A DNA stretch of 64,000 bases. It comes from Salegentibacter salegens. GTDB taxonomy: Bacteria; Bacteroidota; Bacteroidia; Flavobacteriales; Flavobacteriaceae. The DNA lies in NCBI RefSeq assembly GCF_900142975.1, contig NZ_LT670848.1:3658001-3722000 (forward strand). Reading direction: 5' to 3'. The position numbers and the translations under genes are program-made. The notes under the pieces were generated by a model that was given only the letters and a program-made list of their open reading frames with translations, made no database searches and had not been told where the DNA came from. This document shows, one piece after another, positions 7,668 to 40,005 of the stretch. Within the stretch, counting starts at the first letter, position 1; the number at the start of each line of letters is the position of its first letter.

Positions 7668-7950
7668 GTTTTATAAAACGGAGCGTAAAACCCACCTATC
7701 GGAACGTGGGTGGGATGTAAGCGACTAGCCCTGATTGATATCTTTTTCTAATTAGAATGAAAATAATTGGAATTTTTTACATTTCAATTGTTGCTATATG
7801 GGAAATCTTTCATTATTTTAATTTTTTAAACTAGTAATAAGTGAGTTAAATTTTAAAAATTTCTCCCTCTGAGAATATTCTATTTCTTTTGGGTTTTTAG
7901 TTTTAACCCCGCGGTAAAAATATAGCTGTTTTTAAAAATTGTTAGATGAA

Positions 7951-8526
7951 ATGAATATGTTTAAAAAAATCAAACAATATTTAGACGAAAAAACTTCTCT
8001 TCAGGAACGCGAAATAAACTACATAGTAGAATTTTTTAGCCTGAAAAATGCTAAAAGAAATGAGATTTTAATAAATCAATCCGAGGTCTGTAATAACTTT
8101 TATTTTATAAATAAGGGTATACTGCGCATTTTTACACTTAACTCAGAAGGCTTGGAAGCTTCTCGATTTTTTGCATTCGAAGGAATGTTCTGTACGGCTT
8201 TACCAAGTTTTATTGACCAAAAACCTGCAGGCGAATATCTTCAAAGCCTTGAAAAATCCGAACTGTTGGTTTGTAAGCGTAATGATTTTTATAAACTAAT
8301 TAAGCAATTTCCTGAGATGGATCGCATATATAGGGAGATATTAGAATTGGGTTTTATTACCTCTCAAAAGAGAATTTATGGTTTCCAGGGCTTTAATGCA
8401 TTAGAAAAAGTGAAATGGACTATAGAAAACCAACCACAAATCCTGTTAAGAGTTTCTAATAAAATGGCTGCTTCGTACCTGGGAATTTCCCCTTCTACCT
8501 TAAGCAGAGCTAAAGCAAGACTTTAG
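7951..8526 (+). CDS. Crp/Fnr family transcriptional regulator
   Basis: I choose the ATG at 7951 (a second ATG lies at 7957); the open frame reaches a TTG at 7939, which is less likely. The protein has an N-terminal cyclic-nucleotide-binding-like beta barrel (RNEILINQSEVCNNFYFINKGILRIF and the following strands), a long dimerisation helix, and a C-terminal helix-turn-helix (MAASYLGISPSTLSRAKARL). No iron-sulfur cysteine cluster of the Fnr type is evident. The gene ends 6 bp before a perfect 14-bp palindrome in the promoter of the next gene, so it is the obvious candidate regulator of the HIU hydrolase/MFS/deaminase genes. The effector is unknown. Confidence 0.85.
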   Translation: MNMFKKIKQYLDEKTSLQEREINYIVEFFSLKNAKRNEILINQSEVCNNFYFINKGILRIFTLNSEGLEASRFFAFEGMFCTALPSFIDQKPAGEYLQSLEKSELLVCKRNDFYKLIKQFPEMDRIYREILELGFITSQKRIYGFQGFNALEKVKWTIENQPQILLRVSNKMAASYLGISPSTLSRAKARL

Positions 8527-8531
8527 ATTCC

Positions 8532-8545
8532 TTGACTTAAGTCAA
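8532..8545. promoter_or_regulatory. Perfect palindromic operator, Crp/Fnr type
   Basis: TTGACTTAAGTCAA is a perfect 5-4-5 dyad. It lies between the Crp/Fnr gene and the hydroxyisourate hydrolase gene. Its centre is 29 bp from the first base of the -7 element at 8568, which is the distance expected for a class II Crp/Fnr activator site near -41.5. The binding protein is inferred to be the regulator encoded at 7951-8526. Confidence 0.7.
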
Positions 8546-8567: not shown

Positions 8568-8575
8568 TATTTTTG
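8568..8575 (+). promoter_or_regulatory. -7 promoter element for the HIU hydrolase operon
   Basis: TATTTTTG matches the Bacteroidota -7 consensus TAnnTTTG. It lies 14 bp before the start codon at 8590 and exactly 22 bp after the palindrome at 8532-8545. No separate good -33 box is apparent, which fits an activator-dependent promoter. Confidence 0.6.
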
Positions 8576-30650: not shown

Positions 30651-30869
30651 CTAATGATTAGAATCTCCACCTGATTTTACTTCGCAAGTTCCGGTAGAAC
30701 AATTTCCTCCCGCACAGGCAAGTCCGAAAAGCCCCATAGCAGCAGGCCAGACGCCGAGAAGGATACCAATCCATTCTCCTTCAAATGCACTTTGCACAAT
30801 TACGAAGGTTCCTATTAAAAAATAGGCAGCTCTTATCCACGTCCAACCGGTAGCAATTCTTTTTAGCAT
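30651..30869 (-). CDS. Small YgaP-like membrane protein with cysteine-rich tail
   Basis: The 72-residue protein has two hydrophobic helices (ATGWTWIRAAYFLIGTFVIV and IGILLGVWPAAMGLFGLA) and then a tail with three cysteines in ACAGGNCSTGTCEV. It resembles DUF2892/YgaP-type membrane segments, which in some bacteria are fused to a rhodanese. Here it starts 1 bp after a rhodanese gene on the minus strand, so the split partners are probably co-expressed. The cysteines could accept sulfane sulfur or bind metal; this is inference. Confidence 0.65.
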   Translation of the reverse strand: MLKRIATGWTWIRAAYFLIGTFVIVQSAFEGEWIGILLGVWPAAMGLFGLACAGGNCSTGTCEVKSGGDSNH

Positions 30870-31537: not shown

Positions 31538-31581
31538 CAAAACTACTACTTAAGTCTTCTTACTACAGTCACTTTTGTTAC
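31538..31581 (-). promoter_or_regulatory. Promoter A: Crp/Fnr-like dyad plus -7 element, rhodanese unit
   Basis: On the minus strand the dyad GTAACAAAAGTGAC (31568-31581; one mismatch from a 5-4-5 palindrome) is followed by a 22-bp spacer and then TAGTTTTG, which matches TAnnTTTG (about 31538-31545). The same arrangement, with the same 22-bp spacer, occurs before the SQR/RND genes (39962-40005). The spacing places the dyad near -41.5. Confidence 0.6.
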
Positions 31582-31618
31582 ATAACCGATTAGAAAACAA
31601 GGGAAAGCAAAAAAAAAA

Positions 31619-31642
31619 CAGGATGGCATAATAACCATCCTG
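31619..31642 (-). terminator. Terminator of the DUF302 / RND transcription unit
   Basis: The stem CAGGATGG / CCATCCTG with an 8-base loop is followed on the minus strand by a long T run (the A run at 31608-31618). It lies 34 bp after the DUF302 stop codon and separates that gene from the rhodanese promoter. Confidence 0.8.
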
Positions 31643-31675
31643 AAATTAAAATTTAAGAAATTTGATGACCGAGAT

Positions 31676-32065
31676 CTAAGAAAGTCTTTCGATCACCGTT
31701 TTTAGTTTAGAGCGCACGTCTTGTGCAATATCTCCAAGTTTGTTGTTCTCTACAGCAGTCATAGAAGCCACAGGATCTACTGCAGAAACTTCAGTTTTTC
31801 CATCTTCTGTTTCCTGTACAATTACGTTGCAAGGTAGCATTGTACCAATCTTGCTTTCAGCAGAAATTGCCTGGTGGGCCATTTTCGGGTTGCAAGCTCC
31901 AAGAATTCTGTACTTTCTAAAATCTACATCGAGTTTCTTTTTGAAGGTTTCCTTTACATCTATTTCAGTAAGAATACCAAAACCTTCCTCTTTTAATTCT
32001 TTGGTCACTTTATCTATAGCCTCCTCGAATGAATCGTTTAGGATTTTTGAAAAATAATAGCTCAT
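31676..32065 (-). CDS. DUF302 domain protein
   Basis: The 129-residue protein is a full DUF302 domain: YYFSKILNDSFEEAIDKVTK, EGFGILTEIDVKETFKKKL and CNPKMAHQAISAESKIGTML with the conserved cysteine, then PCNVIVQET. No signal peptide is seen. The family has unknown function and often occurs next to sulfur-handling or metal-stress genes in Bacteroidota and Proteobacteria. It lies 183 bp downstream of the YgaP-like gene and just before a strong terminator. Confidence 0.85.
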   Translation of the reverse strand: MSYYFSKILNDSFEEAIDKVTKELKEEGFGILTEIDVKETFKKKLDVDFRKYRILGACNPKMAHQAISAESKIGTMLPCNVIVQETEDGKTEVSAVDPVASMTAVENNKLGDIAQDVRSKLKTVIERLS

Positions 32066-32248
32066 AATATAGTTTTTTTTTGATTACCCTTAAAGTTAAT
32101 TGTTTTCTAGCGTGGGAAGAAAAAGGAATTATTAATCTTATGTGAATTTCCTAAGAATTTTTTCTCCCTCGAGCTTATTTTTAGAATATAGTTCAGATCC
32201 AGTTTTAAAACTATTTTTAAGCTGAATTCCAGGAATCTTCCCGATTAT

Positions 32249-32458
32249 CTAGCACTTTTGGCCGGGTTTCACTTCATCTGTCACTCCCAGCCTTTCCAGG
32301 ATCTTATCCATAAGACACCAGTGGGTAAGAGAGGATTGAAGCAGGTTTGCGCCTACAAAAGCGGTAAACCACAACCAGTTTATATTTACATAGACGGCTA
32401 ATAGAAGGCTAACAATCACAAAGGTTCCTGCTATTCCACGTACAACTCTGTTTTTCAT
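32249..32458 (-). CDS. DUF2892 / YgaP-like inner-membrane protein
   Basis: The 69-residue protein has two hydrophobic stretches (GTFVIVSLLLAVYVNINWLW and FVGANLLQSSLTHWCLMDKI) and the family ending LERLGV, with one cysteine in the second helix and one at the C-terminus. YgaP-type segments are normally attached to a rhodanese. Here it stands alone, 17 bp after the small PII-like gene. It may take part in thiol or sulfide handling at the membrane. Confidence 0.8.
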   Translation of the reverse strand: MKNRVVRGIAGTFVIVSLLLAVYVNINWLWFTAFVGANLLQSSLTHWCLMDKILERLGVTDEVKPGQKC

Positions 32459-32475
32459 TTTAATTAATTTTAGGA

Positions 32476-32781
32476 TTAGATATAATTTTCAATGTTAACC
32501 ACTGCCACCCTTATAGGATTATTGGTTTCCAGGTTCTCATTAAATTCTGAAACTAAATCAAACAGCAGTTCGATCTTTTCATTTTCGGTAAAGGAGAAGA
32601 ACATAAGCGATTCGTTCCCGCCTTTTTCTCCCGGAAACCAGCTCACGGTAGCAATGACCGAGTTGGTGTTTTTATAACCGTCTATTTCAGTACGGCTAAA
32701 GGCTTCAATATTTGCCTTTTTAAAGATGTTGAGGATCTCTTTCTGAAATTCAGCAACACTTGTTACTATTAGTAGCTTCAT
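32476..32781 (-). CDS. Small PII/CutA-like protein of unknown function
   Basis: The 101-residue protein has a predicted ferredoxin-like alternation of strands and helices (MKLLIVTSVAEFQKEILNIF, IEAFSRTEIDGYK, then NPIRVAVVNIENYI). This is reminiscent of PII-like proteins such as those beside metal or RND efflux genes. There are no cysteines or histidines in an obvious metal site. It lies between the RND permease and the DUF2892 gene. The fold assignment is tentative and rests on pattern only. Confidence 0.5.
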   Translation of the reverse strand: MKLLIVTSVAEFQKEILNIFKKANIEAFSRTEIDGYKNTNSVIATVSWFPGEKGGNESLMFFSFTENEKIELLFDLVSEFNENLETNNPIRVAVVNIENYI

Positions 32782-32924
32782 TTTATTAGGTTTAATGTTT
32801 ATAGTTTAAAAGTTGTTGTCAGTTCTCGGTTATCAGTTATTTTCTTTTCCGCCGCAGACTGTGGGGAAGAAACTCGTAATTCTAGCCATTTACACAAACT
32901 CACAACCCACAACTGACAACTGAT

Positions 32925-35900
32925 TTACATCACCTCCTCATTCTCTCTTTTTTGCATCACATTTGTTTTCGCATCAAGGCCTTCATACTTTTTCCGCTCT
33001 ATCATATAGTACACTAACGGCACTACCAGCAGCGTAAGGATAGTTGAGACAATAGTTCCTCCCATTAGAGAGATCGCCAGCCCCTGGAAAATTGGGTCAA
33101 AGAGAATCACGAATGCTCCTATTACAACAGTTCCTGCAGTTAAAAGGATTGGAGTAGTTCGCACGGCACCAGCTTCTATCACTGCCTGTTTCAACGGAAT
33201 TCCGTCTTCTAGCCGCAGGTTCACAAAGTCGATGAGCAACACCGAGTTCCTAACCATAATTCCTGCAAGGGCAATCATCCCTATAAAAGAAGTTGCGGTA
33301 AAGAAAGCTCCCATAATCCAATGCCCCAGTACGATCCCAATAAGGGAAAGCGGGATAGCGACCATCATCACGATTGGTGCGCGATAATTCTGAAACCAGC
33401 CTACGATAAGAATATAGATTATGAAGATCACTCCTAGGAAGGCAATTCCCAAGTCTCTAAAGACCTCAAGGGTTATTTGCCATTCTCCATCCCATTTTAC
33501 GGTATAGTCATCTTCCAGCTCAGGTTGTTGCAGGTAAAGCTCGTCAAGTTCATAACCTGCAGGAAGCTCGATCTCTTTTAATTTATCTTCCATTCCAAGG
33601 ATGGCGTAGACAGGGCTCTCCAGCTCTCCGGCCATATCGGCCAGCACATAGACCACGCGTTTTTGATTCTTTCTGAAAATGCTTTTTTCCCTAACCTTTT
33701 CCTGGATCTGAACAAGATCTGCCACACTTACCATTTGCCCGGTTTGCGATACCATCTTGATCTGGGAAATATCTACCGGAGTAGATTTTTCCTGTTCTGC
33801 CAGTGCAAGGATGATCCCGACTCTTTGGGTTGCATTTTCATCATATAAATGTGCAATTGCTCTTTCTCCCAAAGCGGCATTCATTGTATGAACGATTTGC
33901 TGCGGAGCAATTCCATAGCGCATTGCTTTTTCCTTGTCGATCTCGAAATGATATTCGGTCTGGTCTGCCTCTACCATCCAATCCACATCTACCACATCTG
34001 GAGTTTGTTTCAGGATTCCCTGGATCTCATCAGCAATTTCCATTTGCTTCTCATAATCGGGTCCGTAAACTTCAGCAACAATTGTTGACATTACGGGAGG
34101 TCCCGGTGGTACTTCCACGATCTTGACATTGGCATCAAACTTTGCCGCGATCTTCTGAATATCGGGTCTTAGCAATTTCGCGATGTCATGGCTTTGTTCA
34201 CTTCTTTCGCTCTTGTCTTTCAGGTTTACCTGAATATCCGCAGTGTTACTTGCGCCTCTCAAGTCATAATGCCTCACGAGTCCGTTGAAGGTTATAGGAG
34301 CAGATGTTCCAACATAACTTTGGTAATTCACCACCTCGGGTCTTTGGGACAGGTGCTGTCCAATTTCTCTAGAGACCGTTGCAGTTCGCTCCAAAGTTGT
34401 GCCTTCAGGCATATCTATCACCACTTGGAATTCATTCTTGTTGTCAAACGGAAGCATTTTCACAGCAACCGATTTGGTGAAGAACAAGGCTACAGAGCCC
34501 AACAACAACAGCATAGTGGTACCTAGAAAGATCCAACGGGTTCTTTTGTTATTAATAAGCGGCCTTTCCAGTTTATTATAGATCTTATAGATTCTAGTGT
34601 CCTCAATTTGTTCTGCTTTTTCTTCCTCGCCTTTTTTACCAGCCTTTTCTCTTAGGAAAATTAGCCCCAGGTAAGGTGTAATGGTTAGTGCTACGAACAA
34701 TGACAGAATCATTGCAATGGAAGCTCCAATAGGCATCGGGCTCATATATGGCCCCATCAATCCGCTTACAAAGGCCATTGGCAATACCGAAGCAATTACC
34801 GTGAACGTTGCAAGAATAGTAGGGTTCCCCACTTCGTTGATGGCATAAAGGGCAGCCTGCTTGAACGGCAGCCGCTTCATCTTGAAATGCCGGTGCATAT
34901 TTTCGGCTATGATAATGGAGTCATCCACCACGATCCCTGTTACAAATACAAGAGCAAAAAGGGTAATTCTATTTAATGTGTAATCCAGTAAATAGTAACT
35001 TAGCAGCGTAAGTGCAAAGGTAACCGGGACAGAAAGGAAAACTACCAATCCCCCGCGCCAGCCCATTGCCAGCATCACTACCAGGGTAACTGCGATAATG
35101 GCTCCAATCAAATGCAGCAGCAGTTCTGCCACCTTGTGAGAAGCCGTTTCTCCATAGTTTCGGGTAACTTCTACATGTACATCATCCGGAATAAGATTTG
35201 TTTTCAGGTGTTCCACCTTGTCAATGATCACATCGGCTATTTTCATAGCATCTGCACCTTTGACCTTAGCCACCGATATGGTCACCGCAGGATATTCCGA
35301 AGAAAAATTATTTCCGGCTTCAGAACCTTTTCCGTAGCCAAAAGAAACGTATTCCTTAGGTAATTCAGGTCCTTCGATCACTTCAGCAATCTGGTACAAA
35401 TAAACCGGCTGTTGCTGCTGAGTACCAATGATAAGGGTCTCCACATCTTCAGCAGATTCCAGGAAACTTCCTGTGTTCACCAAGAATTCAGTATCATTCT
35501 GATTAAAACTTCCGGAGGAAAGCTGCTGATTGCTGGCCTGGATCATTTCAGCAACGCCGAGGAAATCCACTCCGCTGGAGGCCATTTTCTCCTTGTCCAG
35601 CACCACACGTACCTGCCTGCTACGACCACCAATCTTGTTGGTAATGGAAACATCGGGCACTTTTTCTATTTCGTGCGTAAGTTCATTGGCAATTTGCCTA
35701 AGCTGGTAATCATCATAAGTTTCACTCCATAAGGTAAGGCCCAGCACGGGAACATCATCGATGGCGCGGGTCTTCACCAGCGGCATCGTGGCGCCCTGCG
35801 GCATCTGGTCCATATGCTTCATAAGTTCATTATAAAGCTTTACATAGGAACGTTCAATATCTTCGCCCACCAGAAATTGCACGGTCACCATTCCCTGTTC

Positions 35901-36173
35901 CTTCATTGAAGTGGAATAGATATATTCTACCCCTGGAATATTGGAAACCATTTTCTCAAGCGGTTGTATCACCCGCGACTCAAGTTCTGTGGGGCTTGCA
36001 CCGGGATAACCAACAAAGATATCGGCCATTGGTACATCGATCTGGGGTTCTTCTTCCCTGGGGATCAAAAACGAACTGTACACTCCAATAACCATAAACA
36101 CGATCATTAGTAGTACCGTAAGTTTCGAATCCATAAAGCCTTTGGCAATTTTGCCTGCTAATCCTTCTTTCAT
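32925..36173 (-). CDS. RND efflux permease (AcrB/CusA-like)
   Basis: The 1,082-residue protein has the complete RND architecture: an N-terminal transmembrane helix (LTVLLMIVFMVIGVYSSFLI), PREEEPQIDVP, two large periplasmic loops, and the transmembrane motif FVTGIVVDDSIIIAENMHRH with the proton-relay aspartates. A C-terminal half repeat follows (IGMIALAGIMVRNSVLLIDF). It pumps substrates by proton exchange with the adaptor and TolC encoded just upstream. Heavy-metal or hydrophobic-compound subclass cannot be fixed by eye. The whole RND/MFP/TolC segment looks richer in G+C than its neighbours, which might point to transfer. Confidence 0.9.
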   Translation of the reverse strand: MKEGLAGKIAKGFMDSKLTVLLMIVFMVIGVYSSFLIPREEEPQIDVPMADIFVGYPGASPTELESRVIQPLEKMVSNIPGVEYIYSTSMKEQGMVTVQFLVGEDIERSYVKLYNELMKHMDQMPQGATMPLVKTRAIDDVPVLGLTLWSETYDDYQLRQIANELTHEIEKVPDVSITNKIGGRSRQVRVVLDKEKMASSGVDFLGVAEMIQASNQQLSSGSFNQNDTEFLVNTGSFLESAEDVETLIIGTQQQQPVYLYQIAEVIEGPELPKEYVSFGYGKGSEAGNNFSSEYPAVTISVAKVKGADAMKIADVIIDKVEHLKTNLIPDDVHVEVTRNYGETASHKVAELLLHLIGAIIAVTLVVMLAMGWRGGLVVFLSVPVTFALTLLSYYLLDYTLNRITLFALVFVTGIVVDDSIIIAENMHRHFKMKRLPFKQAALYAINEVGNPTILATFTVIASVLPMAFVSGLMGPYMSPMPIGASIAMILSLFVALTITPYLGLIFLREKAGKKGEEEKAEQIEDTRIYKIYNKLERPLINNKRTRWIFLGTTMLLLLGSVALFFTKSVAVKMLPFDNKNEFQVVIDMPEGTTLERTATVSREIGQHLSQRPEVVNYQSYVGTSAPITFNGLVRHYDLRGASNTADIQVNLKDKSERSEQSHDIAKLLRPDIQKIAAKFDANVKIVEVPPGPPVMSTIVAEVYGPDYEKQMEIADEIQGILKQTPDVVDVDWMVEADQTEYHFEIDKEKAMRYGIAPQQIVHTMNAALGERAIAHLYDENATQRVGIILALAEQEKSTPVDISQIKMVSQTGQMVSVADLVQIQEKVREKSIFRKNQKRVVYVLADMAGELESPVYAILGMEDKLKEIELPAGYELDELYLQQPELEDDYTVKWDGEWQITLEVFRDLGIAFLGVIFIIYILIVGWFQNYRAPIVMMVAIPLSLIGIVLGHWIMGAFFTATSFIGMIALAGIMVRNSVLLIDFVNLRLEDGIPLKQAVIEAGAVRTTPILLTAGTVVIGAFVILFDPIFQGLAISLMGGTIVSTILTLLVVPLVYYMIERKKYEGLDAKTNVMQKRENEEVM

Positions 36174-36199
36174 TTCGTAGTAGTTTTATTGCTGAAGAC

Positions 36200-37276
36200 T
36201 TATCGAATTTCGAGCCTGGCCCCGTTAAATAATTTTCCTTCGGCGGAAGAGATATAGGACTCCCCGGCATTAAGGCCTGAAAGTACTTCCACCTCATCAC
36301 CTATAGTTCTTCCCAGTCGCAACCATCTTAAAATGGCAGTATTTTGCTGGCTTGGCGTATATATTCCGTGAAGATCCCCACGTGTTACAAGTGCTGAAGC
36401 AGGAATTAGAACAACTTCCCGGTTTTCTCCGGCTGTAGTAGGAAACTGAACACTGGCATACATCCCCGAATAGATCGAAGCATCAGTCTCGTCCAATGCT
36501 ACTTTTACAACATACTGCCCACCTGAATTCCTGGCGGAAGTGCTTATTTCTGAAACCATTCCTTTCAAAGTCTCTCCGGAAGATTTAACCAGGACATCCA
36601 CTTCTGTCCCCTGCTTAACTGAGGCTATTTCAGATTCCGGAACACTTGCCCTTACTTCAAATTTTCCCGGAACTTCCAGGTTTAGCAACGGCATCCCGGG
36701 ATTCGCCATATCGCCAACTTCCACATTTTTTGCTGTAACCACCCCACTAAATGGAGCGACAATATTGGAATAAGCGAATTGTGCGTTGATCTCGTTCTTT
36801 TGCTGCCTGGCGGCTTCAAGCCTGGCCTTGGCCATTTCGTACCTGGCGGTGATATCATCCATCTCCTTTTGGGAAGCGCTGTTATCTTCAAACAATGAAT
36901 TGTATCGCTCATAATCTTTCTCTGCATTATTAAAAGCCGCTGTGGCTTCAGTGATACCCGCATTTACCTGCGCCCGCTTTGCCTGCAGGTCGGCATTATT
37001 GATCTCAATAAGCAGCTGACCTTTTCTCACCTTATCTCCAACACTTGCATTAACACCGGTGACATAGCCCATATTTCGGGTGCTTAAAGTGGCATTTTCA
37101 GCGGCTTCTATTTTTCCGCTAAAAGTGAGGAAGGATTGATCAGATTTTGAAGGAGTTTCAACGGTAACCAACACCGCCGGACTATTTTCTGCAATATTTT
37201 TTTCTGAAGAGTCCCCACAACTAAAAAGTAGGGTCGTTGCTCCCAAAAGGCTCAGGATATATAATTTGGTTTTCAT
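36200..37276 (-). CDS. RND periplasmic adaptor (membrane-fusion) lipoprotein
   Basis: The 358-residue protein has a lipoprotein signal (LGATTLLFSC; Cys20), a split biotinyl-lipoyl domain (GYVTGVNASVGDKVRKGQLL and IVAPFSGVVTAKNVEVGD), an alpha-helical hairpin (about 100-160), and beta-barrel and membrane-proximal domains. It links the inner-membrane RND pump with the TolC channel. It lies 26 bp upstream of the permease gene and 9 bp downstream of the tolC-like gene. Confidence 0.9.
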   Translation of the reverse strand: MKTKLYILSLLGATTLLFSCGDSSEKNIAENSPAVLVTVETPSKSDQSFLTFSGKIEAAENATLSTRNMGYVTGVNASVGDKVRKGQLLIEINNADLQAKRAQVNAGITEATAAFNNAEKDYERYNSLFEDNSASQKEMDDITARYEMAKARLEAARQQKNEINAQFAYSNIVAPFSGVVTAKNVEVGDMANPGMPLLNLEVPGKFEVRASVPESEIASVKQGTEVDVLVKSSGETLKGMVSEISTSARNSGGQYVVKVALDETDASIYSGMYASVQFPTTAGENREVVLIPASALVTRGDLHGIYTPSQQNTAILRWLRLGRTIGDEVEVLSGLNAGESYISSAEGKLFNGARLEIR

Positions 37277-37285
37277 ATTGACTGT

Positions 37286-38593
37286 TTATTTAATTAAAAA
37301 ATCGAGTTGTGCCTGGGCATAATTGTACTCAAATATGGTTTGTGCATATTCCAGCTGTTTCTGGGAAAATTGTGCTTCGGCCGTAAGCAGGTCACTGGTT
37401 TTCTCAAGCCCCTGCTCAAACCTGTTGGAGCGTATGCGCAAAGATTCTTCGGCTTGTTCCAGTGCAAGACGGGTAAGGTTTAGCTTATTTTCGGCATCCT
37501 TTACTGCCCGGCCTGCCCTGTTTCGTTCCATCTCACTTTTGGACACATAGGAATCATATTCCAGCCTGGCTTTTTCATAAGTTGCCTTGCTTTTTTGAAG
37601 CTTTCCGAAGCGCTTGTAACCTTCAAAAACATCCCACTTCATCTGGATTCCCGCGAGATATCCGCTGGCATCGCCGGCAAAGATCTCGTCATCATATAGT
37701 TCATAGCTTCCAAAGGCATTTAGGCGGGGCAGGAAAGACATCTTATCTGCCTGCAGCATTTCGCCGTAAGCCTCTGTAGCCAGTTCCATCGCCCGAATAT
37801 CTGCCCTGTCTTTAGAAACAGTCTCCATATTTTCCTGAACAGGAATTGAAACCTCCAAAGGATCTGTAGGCTCAAAAATGATATTTACAGGTTCGTTTAT
37901 GAGATATGCCAGATAATCAGATGCATTGATCACGTTGCTCTTTGCATACTGCAGCTGACTATTGACTTCAGAAACCCTTATTTCCACCGAAAGCACATCA
38001 GATCGTTGGAGGTATCCCTGCTTATAACTGTCATTCGCCAGTTTCTGGTTGGCGAGCGCTGCCTTTTGGGCGCTTTCCAATACAGTTACAGCCTGGTACG
38101 CGAGTTGCAGCTGCATATAAGCTTTCTCCACCTCCAGAATCATATGATCTATGGTTCGATCTGTTTGTAAAGCAGTAGCATCCATCTTCTTTTTAGCCGC
38201 TTTTCGCTGGTAGATCCCGTCTAAATTGATAAGCGGTTGCTCGACTTCAATTTTGGTGGCAAAGTTGTTGATCCTTTCGGGGTTGTTTAAAAGGTTTGGA
38301 TTAAAATCTTCCTGAGTGACTATTCCCTGGTTCAGTTTAGAGCCAAAAGCCATCAAAGGATTGGTAGTGGTCATCCCGGTATGGGATACGGCCACATTTG
38401 GCAAAAAGATGGAATTTGTTTGCCGGTAATCTCCCCGGGCTTCGAGGAATTCTTGTTGCGAAATCTTGATCTCCCTGTTATTTTCCTTTACCAGCTGTAC
38501 GGCTTCGTTTCGGGATATTGGCTTCGTTTCCTGGGCCTGTGACCACAGTCCCGGAAGTAAAGCCAGCATCATAACTATATATATGTTCTTCAT
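37286..38593 (-). CDS. TolC-family outer-membrane efflux protein
   Basis: The 435-residue protein has a signal peptide (to about WSQAQ) and two outer-membrane-efflux repeats with long heptad-like helices (ISRNEAVQLVKENNREIKIS; EKAYMQLQLAYQAVTVLESA). It forms the outer channel of the RND system. It lies 20 bp after the SQR-like gene in the same operon, which is unusual and suggests that the flavoprotein and the pump respond to one signal. Confidence 0.9.
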   Translation of the reverse strand: MKNIYIVMMLALLPGLWSQAQETKPISRNEAVQLVKENNREIKISQQEFLEARGDYRQTNSIFLPNVAVSHTGMTTTNPLMAFGSKLNQGIVTQEDFNPNLLNNPERINNFATKIEVEQPLINLDGIYQRKAAKKKMDATALQTDRTIDHMILEVEKAYMQLQLAYQAVTVLESAQKAALANQKLANDSYKQGYLQRSDVLSVEIRVSEVNSQLQYAKSNVINASDYLAYLINEPVNIIFEPTDPLEVSIPVQENMETVSKDRADIRAMELATEAYGEMLQADKMSFLPRLNAFGSYELYDDEIFAGDASGYLAGIQMKWDVFEGYKRFGKLQKSKATYEKARLEYDSYVSKSEMERNRAGRAVKDAENKLNLTRLALEQAEESLRIRSNRFEQGLEKTSDLLTAEAQFSQKQLEYAQTIFEYNYAQAQLDFLIK

Positions 38594-38613
38594 CGTTTGT
38601 CTATTATTTCTGA

Positions 38614-39765
38614 TTAAAAGTTTTTGAAGAACCAGAATTTTTCATCCCACCATTTGGAGAAATGTCCCCACTGGGCGGGAGTTTTCATTTTTACATCATT
38701 CTTCCCGGTAGCTGAAAATCTTCCGCCGGTTTCACTGGCTTTTCCTTCACCCGATTCGATAAAGTATTTTCCTTCGGGTATGAAAGTTTGATCAGGTTTT
38801 TGATTGGCTAATTTTCTGCTAATATTGTGAGCTACAACGGCGCCCTGTTGTCTAGCAAAAACTCCGATCTTTGGTAGCACTGATCCGGTTTCAGTCGTAA
38901 CGTGGGTGATGTCGCCAATGGCATAAACATTTACAAATTTGGTTTCCAGGGTTTTGTTATCCACATCTACCCAATTGGAATTTCCGGCTAAATCGCTCTT
39001 TTTAATCACCTCGGGTAGCTGGTGCATTGGAGTATAGGCCAGGAGATCAAAAGCATATGTTTTTCCGTTGCTGAATTCCAGTGAACTTCCTGAAACAGCT
39101 TTCAGCTCGTGGTTTGGATAATATTTGATCCCTTTCTTTTCCAGCAGTTCTCTTAGTTCCTGGGAAGCTTCAGCGCTAGCGAATTCCATTGGGCCGGCTT
39201 CAGGCGTATAAAGGGAAACAGTAGTGTTTTTAGGGAGGTTGTTCTTCCTTGCGAAATCTTCTATAAGCATAGCTGCTTCATAAGGCGCCGCCGGACTTTT
39301 GAACGGAAGGGAAGAAACTAAAATAGCAATTTCACCACCCTCGAACTTTTTTAATTCAGCATAAAAATCCTGAGCTCCTTTTAGGGTAAAGAAATTGAAG
39401 CCAAATTGATCAAGGTTATAAACATCTGCCTGTTCCACGCCCAGGGAAACCACCATATGATCTCCCTTATACTGCTTTCCTTTTACGGTTACAGCAATAT
39501 TTTTTGGATCTATGTTTTCTATTTCTCCTTTAATAACTTCCAATCCTGAAGCGTCCAACTTATCGGTACGCTCTGTGATCTCTTCCTGTTTGCTTTTTCC
39601 AACCATCACCCAGGGGAGTGAAGGGGAATACACGTTGGTTTCTTCTTTTTCGAAAACCAGGATCTTTACCAGGTTGATATCTTCTTCGTTGCCGCTGTGT
39701 CTGCTCAGTTCCCTGGCGGTTACAATTCCTCCTTGTCCGGCTCCTAATACTAAGATGGTTTTCAT
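38614..39765 (-). CDS. SQR-like FAD oxidoreductase without any cysteine
   Basis: The 383-residue protein has the two-dinucleotide-fold layout of sulfide:quinone oxidoreductase. The FAD motif is VLGAGQGGIVTARELSR, a second motif is VNVYAIGDITHV, and the C-terminus is amphipathic and aromatic (HFSKWWDEKFWFFKNF), as in membrane-associated SQR. The segment FKSPAAPYEAA corresponds to the family's CPPAPYE motif, with serine in place of cysteine. The protein contains no cysteine at all, so it cannot use the usual disulfide/persulfide chemistry. It may oxidise another electron donor. It overlaps the upstream small frame by 4 bp (ATGA). Confidence 0.8.
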   Translation of the reverse strand: MKTILVLGAGQGGIVTARELSRHSGNEEDINLVKILVFEKEETNVYSPSLPWVMVGKSKQEEITERTDKLDASGLEVIKGEIENIDPKNIAVTVKGKQYKGDHMVVSLGVEQADVYNLDQFGFNFFTLKGAQDFYAELKKFEGGEIAILVSSLPFKSPAAPYEAAMLIEDFARKNNLPKNTTVSLYTPEAGPMEFASAEASQELRELLEKKGIKYYPNHELKAVSGSSLEFSNGKTYAFDLLAYTPMHQLPEVIKKSDLAGNSNWVDVDNKTLETKFVNVYAIGDITHVTTETGSVLPKIGVFARQQGAVVAHNISRKLANQKPDQTFIPEGKYFIESGEGKASETGGRFSATGKNDVKMKTPAQWGHFSKWWDEKFWFFKNF

Positions 39766-39905
39766 AATTGATTATTTTTAAAATTGATATTATGAATGCT
39801 TATGGCTATAGGTTTAGGTGGGGCTTTTGGATGCACCTTAGAAATCCAGGTTTTTGGAAATTCTATCAAGATTTCTCTTAAGTAGTGTAGTAGATTGTTC
39901 ATCAT
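39762..39905 (-). CDS. Small leader protein overlapping the SQR-like gene
   Basis: A 47-residue frame from ATG 39905 to TGA 39762-39764 shares ATGA with the start of the SQR-like gene, which is typical of translational coupling. The protein (start MMNNLLHYLREILIEFPKTW) is basic and amphipathic with a proline-rich middle (HPKAPPKPIAI). I recognise no family. It directly follows the promoter at 39962-40005, which supports its being translated. Confidence 0.5.
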   Translation of the reverse strand: MMNNLLHYLREILIEFPKTWISKVHPKAPPKPIAISIHNINFKNNQL

Positions 39906-39961
39906 TGAATATTTATATTGTTTAGGTTAATACTCAAACAATTTTATTTCTAATTAGATGA

Positions 39962-40005
39962 CAAAATTAGGTGGTGGATTACCTGTGGGAAGCAACTTTT
40001 GTTAC
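39962..40005 (-). promoter_or_regulatory. Promoter B: Crp/Fnr-like dyad plus -7 element, SQR/RND operon
   Basis: On the minus strand GTAACAAAAGTTGC (39992-40005; one mismatch from a palindrome) is followed by a 22-bp spacer and TAATTTTG (39962-39969). Sequence and spacing match promoter A at 31538-31581. Beyond it, 40006-40296 is AT-rich intergenic DNA before the peptidase gene with nothing else I can support. Confidence 0.6.

Follow-up and report, generated by a model that had tools for sequence, protein, structure and literature searches.

To our knowledge, the operators of Bacteroidota transcription factors are little known. Among the closest described systems, the cyanobacterial regulator NtcA binds GTAN8TAC at -41.5 in the promoters it activates (PMC3898017, available text), and in Staphylococcus aureus the cst operon, which comprises tauE, the sulfurtransferase gene cstA, cstB for a persulfide dioxygenase (PDO)-sulfurtransferase and sqr, is under the control of CstR (PMC5480029, available text). 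Sulfide-oxidation genes are also controlled, through cysteines, by SqrR/BigR of the ArsR family and by FisR, and the sensors named in a 2022 review on reactive sulfur are CstR, SqrR, BigR and FisR, with no Crp/Fnr member in its available text ("fnr" has no occurrences there and "crp" two, both in the reference list; PMC9774590). Among the open-licence papers listed, none had a Crp/Fnr sulfide regulon in Bacteroidetes in its title or abstract, although the slash spelling of Crp/Fnr may be missed in such a search. Here we consider two promoters in a stretch of 64,000 nucleotides of Salegentibacter salegens (contig NZ_LT670848.1, positions 3,658,001 to 3,722,000, hereafter the window), one ahead of a pair of rhodanese genes and the other ahead of an SQR-like gene. 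The two share a dyad of the GTAAC-N4-GTTAC type, and their sites are very probably class II activator operators of one Flavobacteriaceae sulfide/persulfide regulon under a Crp/Fnr protein of 210 amino acids (aa) that is encoded beside tauE (Table 1).

Operator and promoter geometry

In both promoters GTAAC-AAAA-GTnRC stands exactly 22 base pairs (bp) ahead of TAnnTTTG. When both strands of the window were scanned for an exact TAnnTTTG 22 bp after a dyad that departs from GTAAC-N4-GTTAC at no more than two positions, only these two places were found, and at the stricter level of one mismatch no such combination occurred in 60 block-shuffled windows. Direct reading and the window scan bear out the first-pass annotation, which had described a common 5-4-5 dyad, an A4 centre and 22-bp spacing. 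GTAACNNNNGTNRC alone is present three times in the window against 0.42 expected, with 3 of 100 shuffles reaching three; its third copy (32753-32766) lies within a coding frame, at the start of the 101-aa gene, and was rejected as an operator and taken as a chance dyad.

The same spacing recurs over 42 sources (390,837 bp, where L093 and L079 overlap and one own-genome place is counted twice; L numbers are our labels for such stretches of DNA): 31 of 98 perfect-dyad orientations have an exact TAnnTTTG at gap 22 and three at any other gap from 0 to 60, while eight control dyads gave 0-2 occurrences each. Start mapping in Flavobacterium psychrophilum places the TAnnTTTG box at -12 to -5 (PMC9723704, available text), and from this position and the gap of 22 the dyad is predicted to span -48 to -35 with its centre at -41.5, which is the position of a class II activator. 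Relative to this predicted start the layout is that of a class II promoter, and transcription would be expected to depend on the activator.

The genome scan proposed in the first-pass annotation, for dyads 22 bp before TAnnTTTG, returned at least six own-genome promoters, mostly sulfur-linked. Perfect GTAACAAAAGTTAC occurs once (C1:2108237-2108250, minus strand) and its one-mismatch form at three places, two of which are the window sites. Allowing any A/T centre and one mismatch, 17 dyad places were obtained, five of which carry TAnnTTTG (up to one mismatch) at exactly 22. All five are intergenic and point at genes, four being sulfur-linked; the targets are a YeeE pair, a fatty-acid-hydroxylase-like gene with MBL-rhodanese, rhodanese, SQR, and an acetolactate-decarboxylase-like gene (L239 1542-2252, near C1:2113300; exact -7 box at 22). 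The MBL-rhodanese may be called persulfide-dioxygenase-like by its domains only, as the best specific models scored under their cut-offs. The sixth promoter, with a CCTT-centred dyad and again a gap of 22, lies between the crp/fnr gene and tauE, and for a further place with the box at 21, before a DUF6503 gene, we do not claim regulon membership.

In Salinimicrobium (L085), eight dyads with a -7 box (up to one mismatch) at 22-23 precede MBL-rhodanese, YeeE-YeeE-MFS, SQR, rhodanese, HMA with a thioredoxin-like gene, TauE and two divergent unknown genes, where the names TauE and YeeE come from 72-79% identity with the proteins of the own genome. The recurring companions of the dyad are MBL-rhodanese, YeeE, TauE and rhodanese. 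Between the two unknown genes, two outward-facing dyads share one divergent promoter region (L085 14190-14254), and the flanking genes are possibly new members of the regulon.

Conservation was followed in nine named relatives for SQR and in seven rhodanese promoters (six from Salegentibacter, one from Salinimicrobium). The dyad is at gap 22 before TAnnTTTG in eight of the nine SQR promoters, with up to two dyad mismatches and one box mismatch tolerated, and at gap 22 in six of the seven rhodanese promoters; in that of L086 the dyad is kept, but the -7 position holds only TTAAATTG (gap 21, two mismatches). The upstream half GTAAC is invariant across both promoter sets and the promoter-proximal half variable. 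In anchored alignments the dyads are nearly invariant and the spacers unrelated between the promoters, which argues for selection on the site and not for recent copying.

The first-pass annotation had also proposed that the regulator joins sulfur transfer and efflux. A sulfur-centred regulon agrees with the data above and the rhodanese and SQR units are presumably co-regulated, but the efflux link was put too strongly: the TolC-MFP-RND block is absent after SQR in L085, L086 and L089, where the SQR dyad is still present, so the efflux genes look like lineage-specific passengers of the SQR promoter.

The tauE-linked Crp/Fnr protein

One Crp/Fnr regulator very probably serves both window promoters, and the expectation that it is encoded elsewhere gained support from the genome itself. 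Nine genes for proteins with a cyclic nucleoside monophosphate (cNMP) domain are present, eight of which were read in stretches of 8-10 kb, the ninth being window 7939-8526. A dyad accompanied by a -7 box is found next to only one of them, the tauE-linked gene 1.5 Mb from the window (C1 3658001-3722000), and the targets are sulfur-centred; the L076 and L082 stretches each contain a single dyad with one mismatch and no -7 box to go with it. A regulator adjoining the window genes was rejected as the binder of these sites.

The 210-aa protein combines an N-terminal cNMP-binding-type domain (PF00027, 38.8 bits, cut-off 27.5) with a C-terminal Crp-type helix-turn-helix (PF13545, 32.9 bits, cut-off 27). 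Its predicted structure (pLDDT 76.5, pTM 0.54, least sure at residues 77-86 and 132-144) has the Crp fold, with 3dv8 matched by Foldseek at E 6.4e-14 and NtcA and CRP among the top matches, at a TM score of only about 0.5. It scores below the cut-offs of the NCBIfam equivalog models both of NtcA (TIGR03697, 42.2 bits, cut-off 244.95) and of CRP (NF008732, 50.7 bits, cut-off 266).

In a sample of 100 Flavobacteriaceae genomes, the own genome counted in, the protein was matched in 84 (E 1e-30), with a best match below 1e-60 in 76, and at 1e-40 it was matched in 63 of 198 phylum genomes. The association of regulator and site is seen directly in the best-scoring loci. Of 30 family loci, 22 have TauE, MBL-rhodanese or YeeE near the regulator, as do 15 of 28 phylum loci, and in 22 of the 30 family loci the dyad and its -7 box stand within 250 bp after the regulator gene. 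The same combination lies upstream of MBL-rhodanese in 14 of 30 loci (the own one counts as a miss, because its dyad stands before the preceding gene) and of YeeE in 19 of 30, while seven control half-sites gave 0-2 each; in this test a gap of 21-23 and up to one mismatch in dyad and in box were allowed.

The recognition helix of the protein, SRVVISR, aligns with TRVTVTR of NtcA, and its R-V positions are those that contact the operator in CRP. The NtcA pattern is itself present, as GTAACNNNNGTTAC contains GTA-N8-TAC, with the centre computed at -41.5 from the predicted start. Near relatives that have valine at residue 183 (V183), GTAAC ranks first of all 1024 exact 5-4-5 half-sites. It is found in 12 of 18 far V183 loci (next word 5), five of which (L198, L200, L201, L202 and L204) share one genus and are not independent, and in 23 of 30 family V183 loci (next word 5). 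With glutamate at this position (E183), where several loci are likewise not independent, only 1 of 22 loci has GTAAC, and among exact dyads the commonest word is GTGAT (3 of 22), followed by several with two, GTGAC included. For TGTGA, with up to one mismatch allowed, the counts are 9 of 22 in the E183 loci and, among the V183 loci, 1 of 18 in the far set and 6 of 30 in the family set. In the E183 loci, however, it ranks only 12th of 1024, most of the words ahead of it being rich in A and T, and the control TTGAC was present in 8 of 22. A CRP-like operator, GTGAC/GTGAT, for the E183 proteins is only suggested by these numbers. Repeated places (L214, L220, L222, L225) and loci with an unread helix (L221, L223, L224) had been dropped before counting.

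Several observations weigh against one regulon under the tauE-linked protein. Taken by itself, the dyad shows no enrichment in the own genome in any of three counts against reversed-pattern controls: GTAACWWWWGTTAC with up to one mismatch has 17 places against 23 for the backward pattern, and GTAACAAAAGTTAC has 1 forward and 3 reverse places against 4 and 2 with up to one mismatch, and 406 and 429 against 529 and 516 with up to three. The significance of the dyad comes only from its link to TAnnTTTG at 22 and from conservation. Over whole genomes, the number of dyads does not tell genomes that have the regulator from those that lack it, the ratio to the control being similar (161 vs 98 in the 76 strong-match genomes, 15 vs 9 in the 16 without; 3 vs 8 in the eight with a weak match). 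Of the 84 family genomes that encode the regulator, the 30 best-scoring were tested, and likewise the best 30 per target, hence the closest relatives; among the phylum loci, which reach further out, only 6 of 28 have the dyad and its -7 box after the regulator gene. The E183 contrast is confounded, since 15-16 of 19 E-type loci have no TauE, YeeE or PDO nearby. The SQR operators have a degenerate promoter-proximal half-site (GTTGC/GTAGC/GTAAC), the dyad was not found at the own second SQR-RND copy (SQR C1:1933011-1934159) or in the SQR promoter of Gillisia (L090), one of the nine relatives, and the acetolactate-decarboxylase-like target is not sulfur-linked by annotation. Finally, confidence in the structure model is lowest at the cysteine segment discussed below.

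In Gillisia, an ArsR-family gene (PF01022, 41.6 bits; L090 9681-9998) lies directly upstream of SQR, where the dyad is missing, and the SQR unit seems to change regulators between lineages, with this gene replacing the dyad.

Signal, mode of action and alternatives

In the mechanism that we propose, the 210-aa protein would bind GTAAC-N4-GTTAC centred at -41.5 and, once bound, would help sigma-A RNA polymerase at promoters whose only element is the TAnnTTTG box. The genes thereby switched on would be SQR with the RND passengers, the two rhodanese genes, the operon of MBL-rhodanese, tauE and those for the YeeE transporters, most likely in response to reactive sulfur read by C77, C83 and C84. 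That the protein binds the sites directly, that it activates and does not repress, and what it senses are what we infer from the sequences.

Among 58 aligned homologs, C77 is conserved in 58, C83 in 57 and C84 in 54, so that the protein has at least the two conserved cysteines of a thiol-based persulfide sensor. In the structure model C77-C84 form a helix (pLDDT below 50) between two strands of the sensory domain, which we take to be the place where CRP has its phosphate-binding cassette and effector pocket. Persulfide sensing is thus a reasonable guess. A wider proposal, which we put forward tentatively and at somewhat less than even chances, is that a Bacteroidota Crp/Fnr lineage turned the cyclic-nucleotide pocket into a persulfide cysteine sensor (C77-x5-C83-C84) and became the class II activator of a sulfide-oxidation regulon, standing in for CstR, SqrR/BigR and FisR, and that the change from V183 to E183 moved the operator from GTAAC towards CRP-like GTGAC/GTGAT in other lineages.

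Crp/Fnr proteins often sense oxygen, nitric oxide or small molecules, and the same operators and regulator could answer to one of these or to another redox signal, the sulfur genes being part of that response. This explanation overlaps with the regulon proposed here, and we consider it unlikely, albeit worth keeping in mind. In FNR, N-terminal cysteines act as [4Fe-4S] ligands; the first cysteine of the own protein is residue 77, and since none precedes it an FNR-type cluster is unlikely. The conserved targets, moreover, are mostly sulfide/persulfide/thiosulfate-type genes, although "anaerobic regulatory protein" is among the public names of relatives, one target is acetolactate-decarboxylase-like, and CstR of S. 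aureus responds to HNO besides sulfide (PMC5480029, available text).

Repression by the same protein appears improbable to us. The site would then overlap the upstream promoter contact region and block polymerase until persulfide removes the protein, as might be expected from CstR, SqrR and BigR, which are repressors (PMC9774590, available text); the exact -41.5 spacing together with the TAnnTTTG box is, however, a class II activator layout, as for NtcA. We give even less credit to the possibility that the dyads are real operators bound by a different Crp/Fnr protein of this bacterium. It has nine proteins with a cNMP domain, and that of L080 too has an R-x4-R helix (GSTRAVVNR), but among the eight stretches a dyad with a -7 box is found only in L079, the ninth gene has a TTGAC site, and the association of the tauE-linked regulator with its site recurs across the family. 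Recent duplication or chance, which the position of both promoters on one strand and 8 kb apart might suggest, can be set aside, as the spacers are unrelated while the dyads are conserved, which we judge to refute it, and the same layout stands ahead of other genes and in other genera.

Window genes and known systems

Table 1. Features of the two promoters, their units, the candidate regulator and the 8532 site (window coordinates unless C1, the contig of the window, is given).
Feature	Position	Strand	Basis or remark
Rhodanese-promoter operator dyad GTAACAAAAGTGAC	31581-31568	minus	read in sequence; predicted centre -41.5
Rhodanese-promoter -7 element TAGTTTTG (TAnnTTTG)	31545-31538	minus	22 bp after dyad GTAACAAAAGTGAC
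SQR-promoter operator dyad GTAACAAAAGTTGC	40005-39992	minus	read in sequence; predicted centre -41.5
SQR-promoter -7 element TAATTTTG (TAnnTTTG)	39969-39962	minus	22 bp after dyad GTAACAAAAGTTGC
210-aa Crp/Fnr protein gene, beside tauE	C1:2123712-2124341 (L079 4710-5342)		PF00027 + PF13545
Rhodanese-domain protein A, 94 aa	31194-31478	minus	PF00581
Rhodanese-domain protein B, 106 aa	30871-31191	minus	PF00581
72-aa small protein after rhodanese B	30651-30869	minus	no Pfam match
SQR-like flavoprotein, 383 aa	38614-39765	minus	PF07992
TolC-type outer-membrane protein	37286-38593	minus	model scores under family cut-offs
RND periplasmic adaptor	36200-37276	minus	TIGR01730, 212.2 bits, above cut-off 94.9
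RND efflux permease	32925-36173	minus	scores under family cut-offs; found in 6/9 relatives
101-aa small protein	32476-32781	minus	no Pfam match
YgaP-like transmembrane protein	32249-32458	minus	PF11127
DUF302 protein	31676-32065	minus	PF03625; last gene ahead of terminator-like hairpin
Terminator-like hairpin with T-run	31609-31640	minus	between DUF302 gene and rhodanese promoter; read directly in sequence, unscored
Dyad TTGAC-TTAA-GTCAA	8532-8545	plus	22 bp, then TATTTTTG at 8568-8575
Short Crp/Fnr-type protein, distinct regulator type	7939-8526	plus	PF00027

The SQR unit has the order SQR, TolC, RND adaptor, RND permease, 101-aa protein, YgaP-like protein and DUF302, and the rhodanese unit consists of two rhodanese-domain proteins and a small protein. 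The hairpin with its T-run, standing between the DUF302 gene and the rhodanese promoter, suggests that these are separate transcription units. The SQR name is provisional, because it is based on PF07992 and on an SQR model far under its cut-off (SQR_III_seleno, the best NCBIfam model, 176.8 bits against 525). This SQR type is rare in the family sample, where the best match other than the two own copies has 28% identity. The second own SQR-TolC-MFP-RND copy, in L074 (C1:1922000-1938000; SQR 60% and RND 83% identical), lies beside a multicopper oxidase gene and DUF302-like genes. In the stretch from the SQR promoter to SQR, a 46-codon frame is open (39768-39905, minus strand), and by eye similar small frames precede SQR in L083, L084 and L091.

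For the site at 8532 the first-pass annotation had noted the same geometry. The 22-bp spacing is indeed the same, but the dyad is not, as four of ten half-site bases differ. The site directly follows the stop of the Crp/Fnr gene 7939-8526, and a transthyretin-like gene lies beyond TATTTTTG. It was rejected as a third site of the regulon on account of these half-sites and of the neighbouring protein, which was matched in only 4 of the 100 family genomes (E 1e-30). A TTGAC-type dyad was not found in L231-L233, the loci of relatives of this protein; the 8532 site is possibly a second type of Crp/Fnr class II operator.

A regulator, its likely operator, the promoter geometry and a target set were obtained together, for a protein of an abundant family that is strongly matched in 76 of the 100 sampled genomes. 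Two questions, flavobacterial sulfide sensing and persulfide sensing by a Crp/Fnr protein, become directly testable, and the exact 22-bp rule offers a simple way to predict promoters and, for marine flavobacteria, possibly a genetic part that responds to sulfide.

Of the known proteins, the closest solved structure by sequence and fold is 3dv8, a Crp/Fnr protein of Eubacterium rectale with cysteines matching C77 and C83; unlike the 210-aa protein it has R-E and not R-V in its helix, and it is named a "putative transcriptional regulator". HcpR of Porphyromonas gingivalis (9day), presumably of the same phylum, is a Crp/Fnr fold match at rank 35 and is absent from the 32 sequence matches at E 0.01. 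NtcA, the second-best relative in the PDB, has in common with the 210-aa protein the GTA..TAC half-site pattern, the centre at -41.5 and R-V at the operator-contacting positions of CRP, but NtcA serves nitrogen control with 2-oxoglutarate (available text), unlike the sulfur targets and the cysteine cluster here. SqrR/BigR and FisR belong to protein families unrelated to Crp/Fnr. The functional gene set of the cst operon mirrors that of Salegentibacter; CstR, however, is a CsoR-like repressor, while here a Crp/Fnr protein would act at scattered, predicted class II promoters. As described here, the regulon would be of the class II type under a Crp/Fnr protein, with a target set that is new and a mode of sensing that may be new as well.

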